Part shown: positions 1,210-39,653 of the stretch, piece by piece
How the letters are laid out: every line of letters starts with the position of its first letter
Position numbering within the stretch: position 1 is the stretch's first letter
Origin: Clostridiales bacterium
Lineage (GTDB): Bacteria; Bacillota; Clostridia; Christensenellales; CAG-138
NCBI GenBank assembly: GCA_012517905.1
Contig: JAAYUE010000073.1
Span: forward strand, 1 to 40,881
Direction of reading: 5' to 3'
Length of the DNA stretch: 40,881 nt
The notes under the pieces: model-generated
Databases searched by the model: none
What the model saw: only the letters and a program-made list of their open reading frames with translations
Told to the model about the DNA's origin: nothing
Translations under genes and position numbers: made by a program

Positions 1210-3225
1210 TTATCTGTCGCGGCTGGCGTAGTCCGCAATCACGCTCTTGAAGAAGCCGACCGTCTCCGTGACGTCCGCCAGCTCCGCCTTCAGGCGCGTG
1301 TTCTCCGCCTCCAGCGCGAGCACGCGGACGGACTCGAGCTCCTCGTGCGCCTTGCTTTCGGCTTTTGCGACCGCTTCCGCCGCCGCCTGCGCGGCGATCG
1401 TGTCCCGCTTCTTTTCCACGGAGCGCACGCCGAGATCGAAGCGCTCCTGCGTGAGCTCGTTGAACTGTCCGCGCCGCACATAGTGCGTGTGCAGCAGTTC
1501 GTGGGACTTGTGCCCGTTGGGATGCTCGAGATATTCGGCGTAGAGCGCCTTGATATACGGGTTTTCGTGCGACTTTCGCATCACCTTTGCCTCGTCCTCC
1601 GTGTAGAGGCCGCGCAGGCGCTTGGTCCGCACGTCCGGGTCGTCCGAGCGCGGCTGTCCGCCGCCCATGATGCAGCCGCCGGGGCAGCCCATCACCTCGA
1701 TGAAGTGATACGGAGACGTACCGTCCGCGACCCGCTCCATGAGCTGATGCGCCCCGGAGAGCCCGCTGGTGACCGCCACGCGCACCGTGACGTTGTCGAG
1801 GAAGGCGTAGTCCGGCAGCGGATGCTCAATCGTGACCGCCGCCTCCTTGACCTGATCGAGCCCGACGATGGGGGTCACGTGCAGGCCGTCGAACGGCAGC
1901 TCGCGTCCGGTCACGAGTTCGTAAACCGTGCGCAGCGCCGCCTCCATGACGCCGCCGGTGAGACCGAAGATATCCGCCGCGCCCGTGGACATGCCCAGCG
2001 GGTTGTCGAATTCCTCGTCCGGCAGGCTGTTAAAGTCGATGCCCATCTCCTTGATCATATTCGCCAGTTCGCGCGTGGTGAGCACGGCGTCCACGTTCGG
2101 CAGGCCGTCGTTCGTCATCTCCGGCCGGATGATCTCGCTCTTTTTCGCCGTGCAGGGCATGATGGACACCACGAAGATGTCCTTCGGCTCGCGGTGGATC
2201 TTGCCCGCATAGTAGGACTTTGCCAGCGCGCCGAGCATCGTATGCGGCGACTTGCAGGTTGAAAGATGCGCAAGCGAATCCGGATAGGTATGCTCGACAT
2301 ACTTGATCCAGCCGGGGCTGCAGCTCGTGATCATGGGCAGCACGGCCTCGCCGCCGGTGAGCGCGCTCTTGACGCGGGAGAGCAGCTCCGTGCCCTCCTC
2401 GAGAATCGTCAGGTCGGCGGTGAAGTTCGTGTCGAATACGTCGTCAAAGCCCAGCCTGCGCAGCGCGGCGGCGAGCTTTCCGGTCACGCGCGAGCCGGGC
2501 TCGTTGCCGAATTCCTCGCCGATGGCGACGCGGATGGCCGGCGCGGTCTGCACGATCACGCGCTTGTTCTTGTCGTTGATGGCCTCCCAGACCGCCTGGA
2601 TGGAGTCCGTCTCCTTGAGCGCGCCTACGGGGCAGACGACCGTGCACTGGCCGCAGAAGGCGCAGTTGACGGTGCCGAGCGGCAGCTCCATCGCGGGACC
2701 GATCACGGTTTTGAAGCCGCGGTTCTGCGCGTTGATGACGCCCACGCCCTGCACCTCATTGCAGGCGGTGACGCAGCGGCGGCAGAGGATGCACTTGGAC
2801 ATATCCCGCGTGATGGACGTGGACATGTCGATGACGCATTCCGAGCGGCTGCCCTCAAAGCGCGTCGCCTCCACGCCGAGCTGCTTGCCCAGCGCCTGCA
2901 GCTCGCAGCTCTGGTTTCTCTTGCAGCTCAGGCAGTCCTTGGAGTGGTCGGAGAGCAGCAGCTCGTAGAGCACCTTTCTCGCGCGGCGCACGCGCTCCGA
3001 GTTGGTGTGAATCACCATGCCCTCGGAAACCTTCGTCATGCAGGAAGGGACGAGCGTCTTGGCGCCCTCCACCTCGACCACGCAGATTCTGCAGGAGCCG
3101 AACTCATGCACGCCCTCGAGATAACACAGGCTCGGAATCTGAATGCCGTTTCGCTTCGCGGCCTCGATGATGGTGAGGCCGTCTTCCACTTCGTACGCTT
3201 TGCCGTTGATGGTAATATGTTTCAT
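1210..3225 (-). CDS. hydA: [FeFe] hydrogenase catalytic subunit, HydA/HndD-like, with helical tail
   Basis: Catalytic subunit of a cytoplasmic NAD(P)H- and ferredoxin-linked [FeFe] hydrogenase, 671 residues. In order: [2Fe-2S] ferredoxin domain (C34, C45, C48, C62); His-Cys3 [4Fe-4S] site (H94, C98, C101, C107); two [4Fe-4S] clusters (C145-C155 and C188-C198); then the H-cluster domain with all three signatures, TSCSPGW (about 300), MPCTAKKSE (about 356) and MGCPGGCIMGGGQP (about 512). From about residue 600 there is a roughly 70-residue Ala/Glu-rich heptad-like tail that ordinary HydA proteins lack. The ATG at 3225 is preferred over the GTG at 3234 because AGGAGG lies only three bases before the GTG. 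That ribosome binding site overlaps the HydB stop codon, indicating coupled translation. Confidence 0.95.
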   Translation of the reverse strand: MKHITINGKAYEVEDGLTIIEAAKRNGIQIPSLCYLEGVHEFGSCRICVVEVEGAKTLVPSCMTKVSEGMVIHTNSERVRRARKVLYELLLSDHSKDCLSCKRNQSCELQALGKQLGVEATRFEGSRSECVIDMSTSITRDMSKCILCRRCVTACNEVQGVGVINAQNRGFKTVIGPAMELPLGTVNCAFCGQCTVVCPVGALKETDSIQAVWEAINDKNKRVIVQTAPAIRVAIGEEFGNEPGSRVTGKLAAALRRLGFDDVFDTNFTADLTILEEGTELLSRVKSALTGGEAVLPMITSCSPGWIKYVEHTYPDSLAHLSTCKSPHTMLGALAKSYYAGKIHREPKDIFVVSIMPCTAKKSEIIRPEMTNDGLPNVDAVLTTRELANMIKEMGIDFNSLPDEEFDNPLGMSTGAADIFGLTGGVMEAALRTVYELVTGRELPFDGLHVTPIVGLDQVKEAAVTIEHPLPDYAFLDNVTVRVAVTSGLSGAHQLMERVADGTSPYHFIEVMGCPGGCIMGGGQPRSDDPDVRTKRLRGLYTEDEAKVMRKSHENPYIKALYAEYLEHPNGHKSHELLHTHYVRRGQFNELTQERFDLGVRSVEKKRDTIAAQAAAEAVAKAESKAHEELESVRVLALEAENTRLKAELADVTETVGFFKSVIADYASRDR

Positions 3226-3234
3226 GCGGATCAC

Positions 3235-6200
3235 CTACCTCCTGTCGCAGTGCAGGCAGCGCATCGCCTCGGCCATCGCCCTGAGCTTGTGATAGCCCAG
3301 GATCACTTCGTCAAACGAGGTCTTGCGCTTTTCGATATCGAGCTCTTCCACCGCAAAGCGTCTGTGCTCGACCACCTCGTCGTCGCTGTAGTTGTCGGGA
3401 ATCTCGATGGGCGCGCCCTTGTTGAGCTTGCCCTTCCCGCCGAGATATTTGTCGATGGACACCGCGGCGTGCTTGCCGTCCGCGATGGCCTGAATGACCG
3501 TGTCCGGCCCGCGCACGACGTCCCCGCCCGCAAACACGCCGGCCATGGTCGTCATCATGTTGCCGTAGTCCACCACAAAGGTGCCCCAGGACGTCACGCC
3601 GATCTCGCTCTTTTTGATGAACGGCAGGTCGGAATACTGGCTCACCGCCGGAACGACGTTGTCCACCTCGATCATGAAGTTCGAGTCCTCCACGGGCACC
3701 GACCTGCGGCGGCCGTTTTTGTCGAACTCGCCCAGCTGCATCTTCTGGCATTCGATCTTGACGACCTTGCCCGCGCGGTTTCCGAGGAAGCGGACGGGCG
3801 CGGTGAGCTCGACAAGCTCGATGCCCTCGTCCAGCGCCGCCTGCACCTCTTCGGGGTTTGCGGGCATGGCGTCCTTGGTCCTGCGATACAGGATCATCAC
3901 GCGCTTTGCGCCGAGGCGCAGCGCCGTCCGCGCGGAGTCGATGGCGGTGTTGCCGCCGCCGATGACCGCGACGGTCTCGCCGAGGTTCATCTCGCGCTCG
4001 AGATTGACGTTTTTCAAAAAGTCGATGCCGTGGATCACGCCGGTGAGCCCCTCGCCGGGGATGTTCACCTTTTCGGGGAACTGCGTGCCCGTTGCGATAT
4101 ACACCGCGTCATACTGCGCCTGCAGCGCCTTGAAGGTGATGTCCTTGCCGACCTCGGTGTTCAGGTGGATGTTGACGCCCGCCTGCGCGATGAGGTCGAT
4201 TTCGTGCTGCAGCACCTGCTTGGGCAGGCGATATTCCGGAATGCCGAACGCCAGCACGCCGCCCGCGACCGACTCGGACTCGTACACGTCCACCTCGTAA
4301 CCGATGCGCACGAGGTAGTAGCCGCAGGTCAGGCCCGAGGTGCCCGCGCCGATGACGGCGACGCGTTTCCCGTTTTTCGGGAAGACGAGATCGCTGCTGT
4401 AGGGTTTCTCGTGCTTATAGGCATAGTCCGCAACGAAGCGCTTGATCTCGCAGATGGAGATCGCCTCGTCCAGCGTGCGCCTGCGACATTTCTGCTCGCA
4501 GGGGTGCGTGCAGATGCGCCCGCAGACCGCCGGGAACGGATTCTCCTGCCGGATGAGGTTGTATGCGTCGATAAACCGTCCCGCCGCCACGAGGCTCATG
4601 TATCCCGGCACGTTGATGTTTGCCGGGCACGTGTTTTCGCAGGGGGAGATGAACAGTTCGCCGCAGACGCTGGAGCGGCAGTATTTGTCCTTGATGTGCT
4701 CCTCATACTCCTCGCGGAAGTAGCGGATGGTCGAGAGCACGTGGTTCGGCGCGGTCTGGCCAAGGCCGCACATGGCGGTGTCCTTGATCGTCTCGCCGAG
4801 CTCCACGAGCAGCTCGATGTCCCCTTCCTCGCCTTCGCCGCGGGTGATGCGCTCCAGAATTTCCAGCATGCGCGTGGTGCCGATGCGGCAGGCCGCGCAT
4901 TTGCCGCAGCTTTCGTCGCGGATAAAATCCATAAAGAAGCGCGCCGTGTCCACCATGCAGGTGTCCTCGTTCATGGCGATCAGTCCGCCGGAACCCATGA
5001 TCGCGCCGAGCGCCTGCAGGGACTCGTAATCCGTCGGCGTATTCAGGTTGTCCCGCGTCACGCAGCCGCCGGAAGGACCGCCGATCTGCGCGGCCTTGAA
5101 CTTTCTGCGATCGCGCAGGCCGCCGCCGATGTTGAAGAGGATGTCGCCGAGCGGCTTGCCGATCGGCACCTCGATGATGCCGGTGTTCACCACGTCCCCC
5201 GCCAGCGCGAAGACCTTGGTGCCCTTGCTCTTTTCGGTGCCGAAGGTGGCGTACCAGTCCCCGCCCTTTCGCAGGATCTCGGGAATGCTCGCGTAGGTTT
5301 CCACGTTGTTGATGATGGTCGGCGCCTTAAACAGGCCGGACTGGAACGGAAACGGCGGCTTCTGCCTCGGCTCGCCGCGGCAGCCCTCGATGGACGCCAT
5401 GAGCGCCGTCTCTTCGCCGCAGACGAACGCGCCGGCGCCGATGCGGATCTCGAGGTCGAAATCAAACCCGCTGCCAAACACGTTTTCGCCGAGCACGCCG
5501 CGCGCGCGCGCCGCCTCGATCGCTTTCTCCAGCCGCTCGATGGCCAGCGGATACTCCGCGCGCACATAGACATAGCCCTTGCTCGCACCGATGGCGTAGC
5601 CGCCGATCAGCATGCCCTCGATGACCGTGTTCGGGTCGCCTTCGAGGATGCTGCGGTCCATGAACGCGCCGGGGTCGCCCTCGTCCGCGTTGCAGACGAT
5701 GAACTTGCGCTCGCCCGCCGCGTCGTGTCCCGCCTGCCATTTGATGCCGGTCGGGAACCCGGCGCCGCCGCGCCCGCGCATGCCGCTGCGCTTGACCTCG
5801 TCGATCACTTCCTGCGGCGTGCGCTCGTTGAGCGCCTTTGCCGCGGCGAAATATCCGTCCCGGCTGATGTAGGCGTCCAGGCTGTCGTATTCGATCACGC
5901 CGCAGTTGCGAAGCGCGATGCGCACCTGCTCTTTAAAGAAGTCGATGTCGTCGATCTTCGGAACATGCTTTTTCAGCGAATAATCGTAAAACGTGAAGTC
6001 CTCCAGCACCTCGCCTTTGCCGATGTGCTTTTTCACGATGGTGCGCGCGATCTCCGGCGTGAGTTTCGTATAGAAGATGCGCTCCGGCAGAATCAGCATG
6101 ACCGGCCCCGCCGCGCAGGTGCCGATGCAGCCCGTCACGCGGACGATCACCTCGTCCTTCATGCCGATGCGCGCGATCTCGTCCACAACCGCGTTCTTTA

Positions 6201-6345
6201 CGTCCGCACAGTTGGAGGAGACGCACCCTGCGCCGCCGCAGACGAGCACCTGATAGCGGCTGCCCGCCGTCTGGTCCTCATACGCTTTTTTGATCCGTTC
6301 CAGATCCGCCGTCGTTTTGATCATGGTTTCGCTCAAATCCGTCAC
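3235..6345 (-). CDS. hydB: HydB/NuoF-like NADH-binding subunit fused to a GltD-like oxidoreductase
   Basis: A 1036-residue fusion. Residues 30-110 form a thioredoxin-like [2Fe-2S] domain (C36, C41, C73, C77). Residues 130-545 are a NuoF-type FMN/NADH module with RGRGGAGFPTGIKW, CNADEGDPGAFMDR, GAGAFVCGEETAL and a [4Fe-4S] site (C480, C483, C486, C526). From about 560 the protein continues as a GltD/NfnB-like unit: cysteine clusters at 569-573 and 608-620, an FAD-binding GAGTSG at 666-671, and a second dinucleotide fold with GGGNTA at 796-801. The GltD-like unit stands where HydB normally carries extra ferredoxin clusters. The middle gene of a three-gene operon, it starts 4 bases after hydC. 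GTG 6345, TTG 6336 and ATG 6324 are all possible starts; the GGGGGTGA site is best spaced for the TTG. The electron partner of the extra module (NADH or NADPH) is inferred, not visible. Confidence 0.93.
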   Translation of the reverse strand: MTDLSETMIKTTADLERIKKAYEDQTAGSRYQVLVCGGAGCVSSNCADVKNAVVDEIARIGMKDEVIVRVTGCIGTCAAGPVMLILPERIFYTKLTPEIARTIVKKHIGKGEVLEDFTFYDYSLKKHVPKIDDIDFFKEQVRIALRNCGVIEYDSLDAYISRDGYFAAAKALNERTPQEVIDEVKRSGMRGRGGAGFPTGIKWQAGHDAAGERKFIVCNADEGDPGAFMDRSILEGDPNTVIEGMLIGGYAIGASKGYVYVRAEYPLAIERLEKAIEAARARGVLGENVFGSGFDFDLEIRIGAGAFVCGEETALMASIEGCRGEPRQKPPFPFQSGLFKAPTIINNVETYASIPEILRKGGDWYATFGTEKSKGTKVFALAGDVVNTGIIEVPIGKPLGDILFNIGGGLRDRRKFKAAQIGGPSGGCVTRDNLNTPTDYESLQALGAIMGSGGLIAMNEDTCMVDTARFFMDFIRDESCGKCAACRIGTTRMLEILERITRGEGEEGDIELLVELGETIKDTAMCGLGQTAPNHVLSTIRYFREEYEEHIKDKYCRSSVCGELFISPCENTCPANINVPGYMSLVAAGRFIDAYNLIRQENPFPAVCGRICTHPCEQKCRRRTLDEAISICEIKRFVADYAYKHEKPYSSDLVFPKNGKRVAVIGAGTSGLTCGYYLVRIGYEVDVYESESVAGGVLAFGIPEYRLPKQVLQHEIDLIAQAGVNIHLNTEVGKDITFKALQAQYDAVYIATGTQFPEKVNIPGEGLTGVIHGIDFLKNVNLEREMNLGETVAVIGGGNTAIDSARTALRLGAKRVMILYRRTKDAMPANPEEVQAALDEGIELVELTAPVRFLGNRAGKVVKIECQKMQLGEFDKNGRRRSVPVEDSNFMIEVDNVVPAVSQYSDLPFIKKSEIGVTSWGTFVVDYGNMMTTMAGVFAGGDVVRGPDTVIQAIADGKHAAVSIDKYLGGKGKLNKGAPIEIPDNYSDDEVVEHRRFAVEELDIEKRKTSFDEVILGYHKLRAMAEAMRCLHCDRR

Positions 6346-6349
6346 CCCC

Positions 6350-6847
6350 TCAATACTGCGAGAGAATCGCGTCGAGTTTGTTGATGTTCACCTGCTTGTA
6401 GACCACGTCGTCGATCATCATCGCCGGCGCGAGACCGCAGGCGCCGATGCAGCGGGCAACCTCGAAGGTGAACTTGCCGTCCTCGGTCGTGCCGCCGATG
6501 TCGACGCCGAGCGTCTTTTGCAGCGCGTCCACAATTTTCTTTCCGCCGCGCACATAGCAGGCCGTGCCGAGGCACACGCGGATGGTGTGCTCGCCGCGCG
6601 GCGTGGTGGAGAAAAAGGAATAGAACGTCACCACGCCCGAAACCTCCGAAAGCGGTTTGTTCAGCGCGGTCGCGATATACTCCTGCAGTTCGAGGGATAG
6701 GTGTCCGTAAAGTTCCTGTGCGATGTGCAGAATCTGAATGAGATTCCCTTCTTTGTCCCGATACAGGTCGATGGCCTGATCGAGTTCGGCGAATGGTTCC
6801 ATGCCGTCCTGTTGACAGCAGCTGCAATGACTTTGTGCGTTGTTCAT
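6350..6847 (-). CDS. hydC: HydC/NuoE-like [2Fe-2S] subunit
   Basis: First gene of the hydrogenase operon, 165 residues. It is a thioredoxin-like [2Fe-2S] subunit of the NuoE/HndA type that passes electrons to or from the NADH-binding subunit. The four cluster cysteines are C92 and C97 (CLGTAC) and C133 and C137 (CIGAC). The N-terminal half is the usual helical bundle including GVVTFYSFF. An extra N-terminal Cys patch (C8, C10, C11) precedes it. AGAGGGG lies upstream of the ATG. With the next two genes it makes the HydABC-type complex that couples H2 turnover to pyridine nucleotide and ferredoxin. Confidence 0.94.
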   Translation of the reverse strand: MNNAQSHCSCCQQDGMEPFAELDQAIDLYRDKEGNLIQILHIAQELYGHLSLELQEYIATALNKPLSEVSGVVTFYSFFSTTPRGEHTIRVCLGTACYVRGGKKIVDALQKTLGVDIGGTTEDGKFTFEVARCIGACGLAPAMMIDDVVYKQVNINKLDAILSQY

Positions 6848-34526: not shown

Positions 34527-34603
34527 GGTTTTCTCCTTCTCGTTCTTCTTCAAGAGAATACCACTACCTCATCTTTTCTGTACAGTTTAGTGTAGCCAAT
34601 CCA

Positions 34604-35303
34604 ATACCTGTGCCTCATATATATTTCCAAACAGCTCCCCATTCAAAAATTCATCGCGCATCCTGGAATTGAAACTCTCTATATAGCCATTTTCCCACGG
34701 ACTACCAGGCTCAATGTATGTAGTGATAATCCCCAGATTATTTAGCCACTCACGAAGCCTCCTTGCAACAAATTCAGGGCCATTGTCGCTGCGGATATAT
34801 TCCGGACATCCTCGTAATATCATGATTTCCGCCAGCACCTCAATGACATCTGTACTTCGCCAACTGCGTCTGGGCACACTTGCCAAACATACACGCTCAT
34901 ATTCGTCGATAATATTCAGCCACCGGACTTTTCGTCCATCCATTGTTCTGTCTTCTACGAAGTCATAGCTCCAAACATGATTTTTATGCTCTGGTCGGAG
35001 GCGGATACAACTCCCGTCATTTAGCCACAATCGGCGTTTCTTCGTTTGTTTCTTGGGAAGTTTGAGGTATTCTTCCCGCCATATGCGTTCTACCCGTTTA
35101 TGGTTGATTATTTTACCTTCATTTCGCATCATATTTGTTACCATCCGATACCCCACTCGTCCGTAATTACACGCTTTATCCACGATATCCGCACGTGTTT
35201 CATCCTCGTCCGGTAATCTGATGGGTTCATATCTATATGCGGTTCTATTCACGTCCAGCACCCTGCAAGCCCGCCTTTGTGATATTTTATGAGCCTCTAT
35301 CAC
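34604..35303 (-). pseudogene. Outer IS transposase OrfB, 5' part (cut by inner IS)
   Basis: It holds the HTH-like N-terminus (SQRRACRVLDVNRTAYRYEP) and the full DDE core: D in WSYDFVED, D in IRSDNGPEF, E in ENGYIESFNSRMRDEF. This resembles the IS407-type subgroup. At EAQVL the inner IS interrupts it and adds a false ending of four residues. Translation normally starts by frameshift from OrfA; the first ATG in frame is at 35303. Confidence 0.93.
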
Positions 35304-35335
35304 ATACGCTACGGCCGCATGCCGCTTTACAGGGC

Positions 35336-35614
35336 TTAGAAGTTTTTTGAGTTTACATCTTTGAGTATCTCTATATCGAGTGCTTGCTCTGCAACCAGTT
35401 TCTTTAAGCGCACATTCTCTTTTTCCAGCAGTTTGAGTCGTTTAGCTTCATCCTTATTCATTCCGCCATATTCTTTCCTCCAGCGGTAGTACGTCTGTTC
35501 AGAAATATCCGCCTGTCTAACCGCTTCCCCTATTGTTTTTCCTTGTCCGCATAAAACCTCAATTTCTCTAAGCTTTACAATTATCTGCTCTGTTGTGTAT
35601 TTTTTCCTTGCCAT
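35336..35614 (-). CDS. Outer IS OrfA
   Basis: A 92-residue OrfA with an HTH (MARKKYTTEQIIVKLREIEV, then ADISEQTYYRWRKEYGGM) and a leucine-zipper coiled coil (LLEKENVRLKKLVAEQALDI). GAAGGAG precedes the ATG at 35614. It ends in SKNF at TAA, just after a slippery heptamer, so OrfAB is made by frameshift. Confidence 0.92.
   Translation of the reverse strand: MARKKYTTEQIIVKLREIEVLCGQGKTIGEAVRQADISEQTYYRWRKEYGGMNKDEAKRLKLLEKENVRLKKLVAEQALDIEILKDVNSKNF
35342..35348 (-). promoter_or_regulatory. Slippery heptamer A-AAA-AAC for -1 frameshifting
   Basis: On the minus strand the OrfA frame reads TCA AAA AAC TTC TAA. A -1 slip at A-AAA-AAC moves to AAA CTT CTA AGC, and the frame then runs through LLSPVKRHAAVAYVIEAHKI into OrfB without a stop. 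This is the canonical IS3-family arrangement. Confidence 0.85.
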
Positions 35615-35760
35615 CTCCATTCTCCTTCTTCGTTAGTTTATCATCACTCCACTAACTTTGGAACTGGTTCAAGGATTGGGGGGCACGCCATTCTGTCATC
35701 CGGTAGTTATTATAGCAGATGGCGATCAAGTCACGGACGAGAGACGCCACAGTAAACATA

Positions 35761-36156
35761 CTACTGCTCTTCGTCGAGCTCATTACGCAACGATGCGTGT
35801 ACCATGCCAAGGAGTCCGACATTCTGGTTCAAAAGCTGCTGTGGGACTCCTTGAAAGCCAGAGAAGCATATCTTGATCGTTTCTCCCTGCGCCCGAATAT
35901 CCGTTATACGACCAAGCAACGCCGGATGACTTGCTTCGGTGTACCCGAAGTGCATATTCCTCTTTGCGAATATACACGGCATACTCGTGAGCTCCGAAAC
36001 AGCCGCGGGAGTGAACGTGATGTACCTTTTTCTATATCTCGACGGGGTATAATCTCGCAGAGCCCGACTTTTAGCGATGCAGAAAGCGCCGTTATTGTAT
36101 TCTTCGTTCTCTAAGACGAACAGGCTATAACTCGATGAGCTTAGAGAGGCCCACTC
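35761..36156 (-). pseudogene. C-terminal part of the third RHIM-motif gene, after an in-frame TAA
   Basis: Directly after the TAA at 36157-36159 the same frame stays open for 131 codons to the TAG at 35761-35763, with no ATG, GTG or TTG in the first 58 codons and no ribosome binding site. The protein reads well: YSLFVLENEEYNNGAFCIAK, TFTPAAVSELTSMPCIFAKR, GRITDIRAQGETIKICFSGF. The last hundred residues align with the C-terminal domain of the gene two places upstream (AVSELTSMPCIF with AIAEIKRFPSII; GRITDIRAQGETIKICF with FVTDIHKQQNGVMVYF). So this is the remaining part of one coding sequence, cut by a nonsense codon or read through it. Confidence 0.7.
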
Positions 36157-36378
36157 TTACGCGTGGCTGACTTTTTGCGGCACGAGTTGCCCGGAGAACA
36201 TTGCCATCAGGTTCGCGGCCATTTCCGGTCCGAACCCATTGAAATTGAAGTTCATGATTCCAGTGTTCGTGCCAACTTGAACACCAGAACCAGTGTTGAC
36301 CATGCCCTGCGCAGCGTTCGTAAATGACACTGCGGCTGGCGGTAGGGCAGCCGATGCTATTTCGCTTTTATCTGTCAT
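36157..36378 (-). CDS. RHIM-like motif protein, third gene of the operon (short form)
   Basis: A 73-residue product: a low-complexity Ala-rich start, then NTGSGVQVGTNTGIMNFNFN at about 28-47, then FGPEMAANLMAMFSGQL. The centre SGVQVG is identical to the core of human RIPK3 RHIM as I remember it, and flanking Asn and hydrophobic residues alternate as in RHIM amyloids. The gene follows the second RHIM gene by 4 bases with GGTGAGG upstream of ATG 36378. The same frame continues after the TAA for 131 codons. As it stands the product is almost only the amyloid motif, like a prion-type seed or adaptor. Confidence 0.72.
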   Translation of the reverse strand: MTDKSEIASAALPPAAVSFTNAAQGMVNTGSGVQVGTNTGIMNFNFNGFGPEMAANLMAMFSGQLVPQKVSHA

Positions 36379-36382
36379 TGCC

Positions 36383-36973
36383 TCACCCCCACATCTTAAC
36401 GCCCGCATCCTGTAACACCTGTAATAGGTTTATATTTTTTATCGTCCAATGAGTTCTAAACGATTCAAATCCGTTCACAGTACCAAGCGCGTATTCGTTT
36501 TCGATGAGCACCTTAACCGGTATAGGATAGAATCGCTGAAAGTAGACCATCACGCCGTTTTGCTGTTTGTGGATATCCGTCACGAAAGCAAATACAGCGT
36601 TTTTGTCACTTGGCGTGGTTTTGCAGTATTCATCGACGATAATAGAAGGAAATCTTTTTATTTCTGCTATTGCACCATCGTCCAAAGTGGCAAAACAGTC
36701 TTTGAGTTCAGGCGTCATATACTCGGTTAGTGCGCGATCTTTCGGCACGAGCAGGTGATCAGAGGCAAAAGGATCAAAGCCAACGAACAGATTATAGTAG
36801 TCAACGTTGGCTGGTCTCTGTTGTCCGTTTGAGCCGGTTATAATCAAGTTAACCGTTGGTGAAAATGTGTCGGCGTGACCGACCTGAACACCTTTCCCGT
36901 AATTGTTGTATGTAATCACTTCCGGTGCGGCTGGCTGTATGCCGACCGATGTGGTTTTTAGCTTGTTCTCCAT
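36383..36973 (-). CDS. RHIM-like motif protein, second gene (N-terminal motif plus unknown domain)
   Basis: A 196-residue protein. Residues 20-45 hold YNNYGKGVQVGHADTFSPTV, with the I/V-Q-I/V-G tetrad of RHIM at 29-32. A Gln/Gly-rich linker follows. Residues about 75-196 form a folded alpha/beta domain (ELKDCFATLDDGAIAEIKRF, then VFAFVTDIHKQQNGVMVYFQ, FESFRTHWTIKNINLLQVL) that I cannot name; it recurs in the third gene. AGGGAG precedes ATG 36973 (an in-frame GTG at 36979 is less well spaced). No signal peptide or membrane segment. It is likely a cytoplasmic effector or sensor recruited through the motif. Confidence 0.8.
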   Translation of the reverse strand: MENKLKTTSVGIQPAAPEVITYNNYGKGVQVGHADTFSPTVNLIITGSNGQQRPANVDYYNLFVGFDPFASDHLLVPKDRALTEYMTPELKDCFATLDDGAIAEIKRFPSIIVDEYCKTTPSDKNAVFAFVTDIHKQQNGVMVYFQRFYPIPVKVLIENEYALGTVNGFESFRTHWTIKNINLLQVLQDAGVKMWG

Positions 36974-36983
36974 ACGCACTCCC

Positions 36984-37856
36984 TCAATTGATGTTGATCG
37001 TCAGCGTGCCGTTTAGCTCTTCGATCTGTACGCCCTTACCGTAATTATTCATGATAACCTGCTTTGTGGCTTTTGGGGCTTGTCCTGTCTGCCCGGAGTG
37101 TGGCTCCTCTTCACCGGCTGGAACTTCATCGACGATTTCAGCTTCGAGCGTCGGTGTGGCTTCATCTTCAAGATGAGAAGGTTTGGCGGGTTCCTCCGTT
37201 GTATTCGAGGAAGCTGCAGAATAAACCTGCTCTATGTGTGTTTCGGAATACGTCGGCGTCCAGTCAATGATGGTGCTGCGACCAAGGGTATTGTCCTGCC
37301 GGTTCATTATAATGTAGTGCCAGACTCCGACAAGAAACGCCTGAAAGCAAACTGCCGTGATCGTTAGAAGCTGTTTCTTCGTTGAGGGTAAGCCGCCCTC
37401 GTTTATGTAAAACATGGTATCGTCCGGTATATCCTTGTCGTTCCTAATTATCTCGACGAGTGCCTTAACTAGGTACTCGTCTTTTTTTGCGCTTGTTCCA
37501 ACCTCAAGAAAATCGTCAGTGAACGACATCATGCGCGTCAATGCCGTAGCGTAATCGCCACGAACACAATCATTATAGGTTCGCACCTCCGCTGAATCAA
37601 CAGAAAATGGTAAATAAGTACTGCTGTTCTTCCGGCAATTCTTATATGAAGATGTGTTCTCCTTAAACGTCTGTCCCACAGGCGCGGTGAAGTCAGGGCT
37701 CATCACCTTTATGAACGCCAGCATGGTTTCAGGGTCTGAGAGGCCGTCGCTGTCGCCAGCGTAGTGTTCGCGTACACCGGCTCTTGGCTTTCGTGCCTGC
37801 ATGAGCTGGGTCAAAAAGACCCCGCCGCATAGATATGGTTTGCGTTGATCCGGCAT
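36984..37856 (-). CDS. RHIM-like motif protein, first gene (unknown domain plus C-terminal motif)
   Basis: A 290-residue protein. Residues 1-200 are a mostly helical domain that I do not recognise (LVKALVEIIRNDKDIPDDTM, then a hydrophobic stretch LLTITAVCFQAFLVGVWHYI and NRQDNTLGR). Residues 200-262 are an acidic, Pro/Glu-rich, disordered linker. The last 26 residues are QVIMNNYGKGVQIEELNGTL and TININ, the same NNYGKGVQ(V/I) motif as in the second gene, here at the very C-terminus. AAGGAGGTG precedes the ATG. First gene of a three-gene operon with gaps of 10 and 4 bases. The layout suits a sensor or scaffold that nucleates the motif of the other two. Confidence 0.82.
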   Translation of the reverse strand: MPDQRKPYLCGGVFLTQLMQARKPRAGVREHYAGDSDGLSDPETMLAFIKVMSPDFTAPVGQTFKENTSSYKNCRKNSSTYLPFSVDSAEVRTYNDCVRGDYATALTRMMSFTDDFLEVGTSAKKDEYLVKALVEIIRNDKDIPDDTMFYINEGGLPSTKKQLLTITAVCFQAFLVGVWHYIIMNRQDNTLGRSTIIDWTPTYSETHIEQVYSAASSNTTEEPAKPSHLEDEATPTLEAEIVDEVPAGEEEPHSGQTGQAPKATKQVIMNNYGKGVQIEELNGTLTININ

Positions 37857-38013: not shown

Positions 38014-38514
38014 ATGTCAAACAATGAAAATCACCAGAAAATCCGAGAGCACTTCATCTACGAACCCGCCACCAAGCAGCGCATTCCCGTCAGTGACGAA
38101 GTCTACAACGAGTTCTACCACCCGATTTGGAACACCTTCCGTAAGGCGCACCGTCATGGCTGCTGTTCCTGCCCCGGGAGCAAGTGGTGGCTCTGCAGCG
38201 GCGACTGCGCTGTATGCAAGTACCGTACCGCCGGGGACAACCTTTCTCTCGACTACGAGCAAGAGGTGGTTGGCGACATTCGCCCGGACGATTCCGACCT
38301 TGAGTCCATCGTGACCGATCGCATCATTTTCGATCAGCTTCTTAAGAGGCTGGACGTGCTGATGCCGGAAGCGCGCCGCATTGGAGAGCTTCGGCAGGAC
38401 GGTTACTCCGACAACGCCATCGCAGACATTATCGGCGTTCCCCGCACGACATTCCTTTCCCGCATCAAGAAAGTAAACGCCCAGCTCCACGACGAATACG
38501 ACGACATTTTCTAA
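38014..38514 (+). CDS. Cys-rich sigma-70-like regulator of mobile-element type
   Basis: A 166-residue protein. The N-terminal half has a cysteine patch CCSCPGSKWWLCSGDCAVCK (about 47-67), likely a zinc site. The C-terminal half looks like sigma-70 region 4: LESIVTDRIIFDQLLKRLDV, then the HTH GYSDNAIADIIGVPRTTFLS and RIKKVNAQL. Proteins of this kind occur in clostridial prophages and integrative elements as regulators. GCAGGAGG lies before ATG 38014; the frame further upstream runs through the leader hairpin. It is divergent from the RHIM operon and might control it. Confidence 0.8.
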   Translation: MSNNENHQKIREHFIYEPATKQRIPVSDEVYNEFYHPIWNTFRKAHRHGCCSCPGSKWWLCSGDCAVCKYRTAGDNLSLDYEQEVVGDIRPDDSDLESIVTDRIIFDQLLKRLDVLMPEARRIGELRQDGYSDNAIADIIGVPRTTFLSRIKKVNAQLHDEYDDIF

Positions 38515-38570: not shown

Positions 38571-39653
38571 TTATACTCCATAAACACTGCGGCAGGAATC
38601 TTCATACTCGCTGTATTCCGGGAGTTGCTGCATACTGACACGAACCTGTCGTCTACGTTGCTGAAGATTCCTAAACGCAGGCGAGCAATACGGAAGTAGC
38701 TCAGGGGTTGCCAGCTCAGCAATAAGATGATCTCGTAGAGCGCGAGTCTTATCTACAACCTGCTTATGCGCTTCATTATCAGAATCAAAGCAAGGAGTAA
38801 CATTATAAGGCAACGTGTGAACGTGCCGCCTGCCTTGCGCTCCTTCTGGTTGAAAATCTGCAATAATCTTATCCAATGCCTGGCTATTGATTAAGCCCGT
38901 TATATACAAGGCTTCGTCCTCTGATTTGGCGAGATACCAGTATATGGTTTGGTCGATTATCAGTTTTTCCGGACGTAAAACACAACTCATCGGGACATAT
39001 GTTGCACAAGGATATCCTCCGCCCGCACCTACCATGACAAGCCAATTATCACGATCTGCCGCTGAAAAAGTCTGTGGGCTTAACTTATTCCTGTAGTTAA
39101 TCCTGTTGAAATACTGGCGTGCTGATTCACCGGTTTCTTCAAAGATACGCCTGAATGCGGCGGACACTGTGGCCCCGTATGATGCAAGCTCTGCTTCATC
39201 AACTACGTCCCAACGTCCTTCATTACGTTTTATTGGCAAGAGCGTTTTTACGGGCGCAGCCAGATAAAAAGGAAGAACGTGCTCAGACTCAAAGCAATCA
39301 TATATGAATTGGTCATCGATATTAATGACATCGAGGGAAAAGTCCTTATGCTTTTTTATCTTTGCTCCACTCACAAGATATGACAATTCGTCGTTTTGCC
39401 TTGGAATAGGACGAACAGCCCACTTTCCATTTTGCTGCAGCACACATTTGTGAAAGACCAATGTGCGTGGCATAATGTCAGCGCCCTGTAAGAAATGTAT
39501 TTTTTCAATCACACCGTCGGTGATGGTGGTAACTGCTGGATTGTCTGTCCAAGCAGTTCTTCTTCCTTGCCGAATCAACCTGTATTCAACCGTTTCGTCA
39601 GGCTTCGGCAGCACCATCTCAGCCGGTATGGATGCTGAAATCAAACGCGCCAA
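38571..39653 (-). pseudogene. C-terminal (target recognition) part of an N6-adenine methyltransferase
   Basis: A 360-residue frame that looks like the specificity half of a large type II/Eco57I-like DNA methyltransferase: DNWLVMVGAGGGYPCATYVP, then TIYWYLAKSEDEALYITGLI and NSQALDKIIADFQPEGAQGR, ending near HKQVVDKTRALRDHLIAEL. There is no SAM-binding FxGxG motif and no NPPY/NPPF catalytic motif. The frame opens at TTG 39653 directly after a TAG, with no ribosome binding site, so the catalytic half has been lost at about 39620-39665. The family call rests on recall of the C-terminal pattern. Confidence 0.5.

Follow-up and report, generated by a model that had tools for sequence, protein, structure and literature searches.

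The window analyzed here is a 40,881-nucleotide contig of a Clostridiales bacterium (JAAYUE010000073.1, assembly GCA_012517905.1). It carries two adjacent minus-strand genes, referred to from this point on as gene 1 and gene 2, whose products share a short motif that is C-terminal in the first and N-terminal in the second. Comparison of homologous operons indicates, at the level of sequence, that the gene order is conserved, that the two proteins are coupled through this matched motif, and that motif and domains evolve separately. We consider it rather probable that the pair is a two-component, amyloid-type immune switch, with gene 2 as the receptor side, gene 1 as the effector side and the motif as an operon-specific template. 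An earlier note on this DNA had proposed a RHIM-like amyloid signaling operon of three genes, and the motif peptides that it read in genes 1, 2 and 3 are all encoded there. That finding is sound and is strengthened by the wider context, while the RHIM label is too narrow. The features of the pair are as follows.

36984..37856, minus strand: gene 1, 290 amino acids; helical domain (residues about 9-212), linker and C-terminal motif; proposed effector side
37221..37832, minus strand: helical domain of gene 1, matching a HamA1-type N-terminal domain (hhalign probability 98, E-value 1.5e-13)
36987..37052, minus strand: C-terminal motif of gene 1, residues 269-290, ending in MNNYGKGVQIEELNGTLTININ
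36383..36979, minus strand: gene 2, 198 amino acids as listed; proposed receptor side
36866..36910, minus strand: N-terminal motif of gene 2, residues 24-38; the N-terminal stretch contains YNNYGKGVQVGHADTFSPTVNLII
36392..36808, minus strand: folded domain of gene 2, residues 58-196, predicted to be PUA-like (EVE/YTH/ASCH-like)

Both genes are intact and, as listed, are separated by 4 bases. The listed homologues of gene 2 begin at an ATG equivalent to position 36973, which gives a protein of 196 amino acids.

Matching of motifs within operons

Open reading frames (ORFs) matched by both family hidden Markov models (HMMs) in 136 sequences (135 loci and the window) gave 65 non-identical gene 1-gene 2 pairs, excluding gene-1 ORFs that exceed 450 amino acids or run off the contig. 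The last 60 residues of gene 1 (the tail) were scored against up to 80 residues ahead of the folded domain of gene 2 (the head). At successive redundancy levels of 47, 30, 20 (diverged pairs) and 11 pairs, the mean cognate scores were 54.4, 56.1, 55.5 and 54.6, as against non-cognate means of 29.8, 29.2, 27.5 and 25.6, and at each level 0 of 100,000 permutations did as well. Tails ranked their own head first in 18/47, 17/30, 17/20 and 8/11 cases, and heads their own tail in 20/47, 19/30, 16/20 and 11/11. Because non-cognate scores correlate with relatedness (r 0.39), the comparison with the nearest relative matters; in 33 of 40 cases a tail scored higher with its own head than with the nearest relative's. 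Background is set by shuffled tails (23.8-25.1) and by other windows of gene 1 (25.9-27.4). Scores of at least 40 were reached by 54 of the 65 pairs, the remaining 11 including the second operon of the window's own genome, and when the two complete proteins are aligned, the top alignment lands on the motifs in 58 of the 65. Codons are identical at 45% of identical motif residues, where 42% is expected (720 positions), and the matching therefore acts at the protein level and does not reflect recent DNA copying.

To illustrate, locus L015 pairs IPNYGTVNL with IPNYGTVNL, L028 NFNAPIHTF with NFNAPIDTF, L118 EKIYYIDHVDN with EKLYNIKHVEN, L013 QFGYI with QFGYV, and L059 SGDIYSDIGTLN with SGDIYSNIGTIN. 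Two operons added later follow the same rule: that of Streptococcus phage Javan105 scores 59, with 3 of 65 foreign heads equalling or beating its own, and that of a Lactococcus plasmid scores 50, with 1 of 65. The opposite placement to which the earlier note drew attention is that of BASS-type pairs, in which adjacent genes carry matched motifs at the C-terminus of one product and the N-terminus of the other, and the cognate scores support homotypic coupling.

The motif core and the RHIM question

The RHIM/BASS3 core is given as G-(I,V)-Q-(I,V)-G in PMC7885112. Genes 2 and 3 of the window show this published G-phi-Q-phi-G pattern exactly, and gene 1 departs from it (GVQIE). Presented earlier as the defining pattern, it occurs exactly in only 10 of 77 gene-1 homologues and in 34 of the 120 gene-2 homologues among the matches listed, and in no other region of these same proteins; in shuffled motif regions it arises in 18 of 39,400 (0.05%). 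Other operons have unrelated cores, such as IPNYGTVNL, NFNAPIxTF, GDIYSxIGT and xQFNNxxIxT, which are still matched inside the operon. A fixed RHIM as a family feature is accordingly rejected. That the GVQ(V/I) stretch is not conserved disposes of the literal RHIM idea; the broader signaling idea gains strength from the matching within operons. Searches of Pfam and of PDB sequences returned no match of the motif to a RHIM profile or fibre, profiles of 26 residues having little power.

The motif blocks are enriched in Asn, Gln, Gly and beta-branched residues (Asn 16%, Gly 8.5%), as against a gene-1 linker enriched in Glu, Asp and Pro (Asn 6%, Gly 3%). They lie outside the folded domains, in stretches with a block-mean pLDDT below 55.

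The motif as a replaceable coupling

In five loci (L008-L010, L070 and L079), a different protein stands in for gene 2, and its N-terminus can be aligned with the tail of gene 1, with tail-head scores of 46-52 in the four pairs scored; in L070, VDNHANVGNQTIINIQNMTGNI is matched with VNNYGTVQNQKFISIETMNGDI. The four replacement proteins scanned, from L009, L010, L070 and L079, contain NACHT and SNaCT14 domains (Pfam); that of L008 runs off its contig. In addition, 11 long ORFs have the gene-1 domain fused directly to NACHT (11/11), with SNaCT14 present in 10, and L057 and L058 combine the gene-1 and gene-2 domains in a single chain. An Asn/Gln/Gly-rich tail, defined as a 24-residue stretch with at least 40% of these residues after the domain, occurs in none of these 13 fusions, as opposed to 51 of 68 free gene-1 proteins. 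The converse exchange is seen in L048, L049 and L051, where an unrelated N-terminal domain stands ahead of a gene-1-type tail; the profile match spans linker and tail, and the tails are matched to their own gene 2 (score 58 on alignment). In L049 this domain corresponds to LmuA residues 1-154 (E-value 4.7e-20). Neither gene 1 nor gene 2 of the window has a NACHT or SNaCT14 domain by Pfam. The earlier remark that no NLR is visible thus holds for the pair itself, but the fusions bring the family nearer to NLRs than had been thought.

Helical-looking inserts of similar style were seen by eye between the gene-1 domain and the motif in L002, between the gene-1 and gene-2 domains in L057 and L058, and in the motif-bearing NACHT protein of L170.

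Predicted folds of the two proteins

Neither protein has a Pfam match at an E-value of 1 or a meaningful NCBIfam match. For gene 1, AlphaFold2 predicts the helical domain confidently (block means 89-98 across residues 41-210), while residues 218-275 are nearly all below 50 and the motif is at about 41-54. For gene 2, values are below 50 as far as residue 44 and confident from about residue 60 onward. The disordered linkers proposed at the outset are thus predicted, low AlphaFold2 confidence being compatible with disorder and no proof of it.

Homologues of the helical domain of gene 1 occur at the N-terminus of HamA1-type, ABC-3C-type and NACHT proteins. Gene 1 itself matches the PADLOC HamA1 model weakly (E-value 1.5e-4), as do 21 of 69 family members at 0.1 or better, and it aligns solely to the extra N-terminal region of model PDLC00164 (positions 88-179); the HamA (DUF1837) nuclease domain was not found in gene 1 by Pfam. 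The HamA catalytic motif is described as D-GEXK in PMC12799240. One degraded HamA with the gene-1 domain in front has GASQ in its place, and in a sister HamA the front position is occupied by a TIR_2 domain. In L147 the domain precedes a CTD11 domain of the ABC-3C type. One N-terminal module is therefore common to NACHT, Hachiman-type and ABC-3C proteins, joined covalently or via a matched motif.

Sequence searches of Pfam and PDB gave no match to gene 2. Its fold match to the EVE/PUA type is weak but consistent, and the domain is predicted to be PUA-like, of the EVE/YTH/ASCH class. Residues E172, H177, W178 and K181 are invariant in an alignment of 77 rows.

L147-L151 encode proteins of 411-485 amino acids with a HamA1-type N-terminal domain and a Cys-rich middle, followed by a small gene and an ABC-type ATPase gene; the C-terminal end of the L147 protein is CTD11 of ABC three-component systems. 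L145 has, in consecutive order, a gene that by eye resembles the LmuA-like N-terminal domain, a helix-turn-helix (HTH)-like gene and a degraded HamA, and L146 has a TIR_2-HamA fusion; the layout of both resembles gene 1-gene 2 loci. A single 1002-codon frame in genome G711 (L136, L153) is matched by both the HamA1-type N-terminal domain and SNaCT14, with an SNF2-HKD-like gene after it.

Distribution and upstream setting

We found 77 homologues of gene 1 and 516 of gene 2 (E-value at most 0.001; 120 of them listed), almost all named 'hypothetical protein'. Gene 1 occurs in 2 of 101 genomes in a search of relatives and gene 2 in 2 of 391 genomes of the class; the gene-1 domain occurs in 12 of 299 genomes of the phylum, 7 of the 12 being weak matches to its second half alone. 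The pair is patchily spread over 25 genome-contig loci, mostly from Bacillota to judge from record titles, with a Prevotella and a Desulfobulbaceae bin besides, and a second, diverged operon (L003) lies in the same genome as the window. Viral contigs contributed 67 gene-1 and 37 gene-2 loci, and 8 of 50,697 phage records and 1 of 72,556 plasmid records were positive. Upstream of 55 operons there are relatives of a DUF2800 protein (42), an Enc34-type phage single-stranded DNA-binding protein (39; labelled DUF2815, and identified by a scan on L008), a family-A DNA polymerase (36) and the window's sigma-like gene (32). The setting looks like a defence hotspot within phage-like elements, the phage-like share being biased upward because a viral-contig collection supplied many of the loci.

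The proposed switch and its alternatives

The pair would most likely be directed against phages. In the proposed switch, gene 2 would bind foreign or modified nucleic acid, by which its N-terminal motifs would be freed or clustered. These motifs would then seed cross-beta stacks that take in the matching tails of gene 1, and the clustered helical domains of gene 1 would become active and cause cell arrest or death, either unaided or together with the neighboring RloC-like or SNF2-HKD protein. The cross-beta nature, polymerization, trigger, polarity and antiphage activity are what we infer. More tentatively, the family might represent a class of NLR-free, amyloid-templating immune receptors, in which a PUA-like nucleic-acid reader nucleates a fibre and recruits a helical executioner, the motif being swappable between receptors (PUA-like or NACHT) and effectors (HamA- or LmuA-type N-terminal domains) and lost on fusion.

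A census of 62 unique operons, 53 of them with at least 2.5 kb downstream, bears on the question of autonomy (same strand, within 5 kb; phmmer E-value 1e-5). Genes for RloC-like proteins were found in 45 of the 53, for SNF2-HKD proteins in 11 and for HsdM in 14, with at least one in 52, which places the pair beside defence genes; an HTH_17 gene is downstream in 37 operons. Such a setting supports a role in defence, and the pair may act on its own or belong to the downstream system. That it does not stand alone but serves the RloC-like or SNF2-HKD system as a sensor or regulatory subunit is possible, if somewhat doubtful. The census, together with the order gene 1-gene 2-HTH-RloC in Streptococcus phage Javan105, is what such a subunit would lead one to expect. 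However, the downstream partner varies, the Lactococcus plasmid pair has no annotated RloC-like, SNF2-HKD or HsdM gene at all, and the ends of RloC-like proteins have no cognate motif of similar strength (27.7 vs 25.2; 22.3 vs 21.1). The RloC-like protein is moreover the PADLOC candidate PDC-S06, which we take to be a single-gene candidate.

It is unlikely that the motif is instead a homotypic or paired beta-strand dock of a constitutive two-protein complex that neither polymerizes nor templates. Any specific dock between peptides predicts that motifs match within operons and that fusions lack the tail, but here the two peptides are alike and not complementary, they are Asn/Gln/Gly-rich and sit on predicted disordered linkers, and the C-terminal/N-terminal layout is the one reported for amyloid signalosomes (PMC7889193).

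Reversed polarity, with gene 2 as an effector (e.g. an ASCH-like RNase) and gene 1 as a sensor or adaptor, appears improbable as well. The invariant residues of gene 2 would suit it, as would the single-strand-specific ribonuclease activity reported for an ASCH protein (PMC5615036) and the presence of the gene-1 domain on a protein with additional domains. Yet gene 2 occupies the place of the NACHT protein in related operons, the gene-1 domain occupies that of TIR on HamA, and receptor-side motifs are N-terminal in the systems described in PMC7889193.

Finally, it is scarcely credible that the tails are functionless, low-complexity Asn-rich ends with a likeness due to chance: some homologues do have poorly matched tails (11/65 below 40), but the permutation test contradicts this, and the shuffled tails and the codon test speak against it too.

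Comparison with known systems

The proposed two-component switch most resembles the two-gene BASS/BELL-NLR clusters of filamentous bacteria (Dyrka et al. 2020, as presented in PMC7889193, PMC8086366 and PMC12261475), in which adjacent or overlapping genes have the effector motif C-terminal and the receptor motif N-terminal, with several motif families, among them the RHIM-like BASS3. The layout is equal but the receptor differs, being here a small non-NLR domain: gene 2 has no Pfam domain, and an NLR (NACHT or NB-ARC) stands on the receptor side in L009, L010, L070 and L079 only. The effector domain here is helical and about 200 amino acids long, and the small BELL type against which it was tested gave no match. 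Our loci are mainly from Bacillota and phage-like contigs, whereas those clusters are described mainly from actinobacteria and cyanobacteria. The fungal HET-S/NWD2 and HELLP/PNT1 pairs likewise place a helical effector domain with a C-terminal motif beside a receptor with an N-terminal one, and some members have a PP/RHIM-type core (PMC7889193, PMC7885112); unlike them, the window operon has no Pfam match to such domains and no NLR, and is known here from its sequence. PMC7889193 asks whether bacterial signaling amyloids occur in pathways independent of NLRs, and the gene 1-gene 2 family offers dozens of diverged, compact operons for asking this.

According to PMC12169576, no effector domain can readily be discerned in the bNACHT clade 14 proteins (NACHT with SNaCT). 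In loci related to the window operon, the gene-1 domain is either joined to NACHT-SNaCT14 in one chain or accompanied by a separate NACHT-SNaCT14 protein that bears the motif, and the domain is hence a candidate effector for such proteins; the window pair itself contains no NACHT. The single E. coli plasmid NACHT protein examined (L142) has a different start and may or may not belong to clade 14. Gene 2 weakly recalls EVE/PUA-type modification sensors such as VcaM4I (PMC7641849, PMC7897488) in its predicted fold but has no fused nuclease and no Pfam or PDB sequence match. One HamA1 type of Hachiman (PMC12799240) has an N-terminal domain homologous to the gene-1 domain, and the alternative N-terminal domain matches Lamassu LmuA (1-154); gene 1 differs from both systems in that it has no HamA/DUF1837 part, and neither HamB nor LmuB was identified beside it.

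State of the locus and neighboring features

The remaining features near the pair are these.

36157-36408, minus strand: the ORF of gene 3, the front of a broken gene-2 paralogue (paralogue part 36157..36378), carrying MVNTGSGVQVGTNTGIMNFNFNG
36235..36303, minus strand: motif of gene 3, with a GVQVG core
35761..35982, minus strand: remainder of the broken paralogue past the in-frame stop (gene-2 HMM E-value 1e-13), final residues lost
35682..35783, minus strand: remnant of an RloC/AAA_13-type gene (34 residues, 79% identity)
34587..35620, minus strand: two transposase ORFs adjoining the RloC-like remnant (HTH_Tnp_1 and rve by Pfam), which we take to be of the IS3 type
38014..38514, plus strand: divergent sigma-like HTH gene with weak sigma-70 matches

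Gene 3 and the ORF at 35761-35982 form one 222-codon frame of a gene-2 paralogue, interrupted by a single in-frame TAA and without its C-terminus. Of the three-gene scaffold envisaged earlier, a two-gene module therefore remains and the third complete gene does not. The same trio does exist intact elsewhere, in L004 (Butyricicoccus sp.) and L005, where unbroken 225-residue counterparts of gene 3 follow gene 2 and the gene-1 tail scores 48 and 53 (L004) or 49 and 52 (L005) against the two heads; genes 1 and 2 form the conserved pair. The window thus holds an intact pair inside an otherwise decaying defence cassette, with RloC gone and gene 3 broken, and present activity of this copy is uncertain because the downstream part has decayed.

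On the other side, positions 38571-39653 contain a fragment that matches type IIG restriction-modification enzymes in their C-terminal part (PADLOC E-value 9e-6), probably the methyltransferase remnant that the earlier note had mentioned. At a distance from the pair, the genes at 1210-6847 look, by eye, like an NADH-dependent FeFe hydrogenase cluster.
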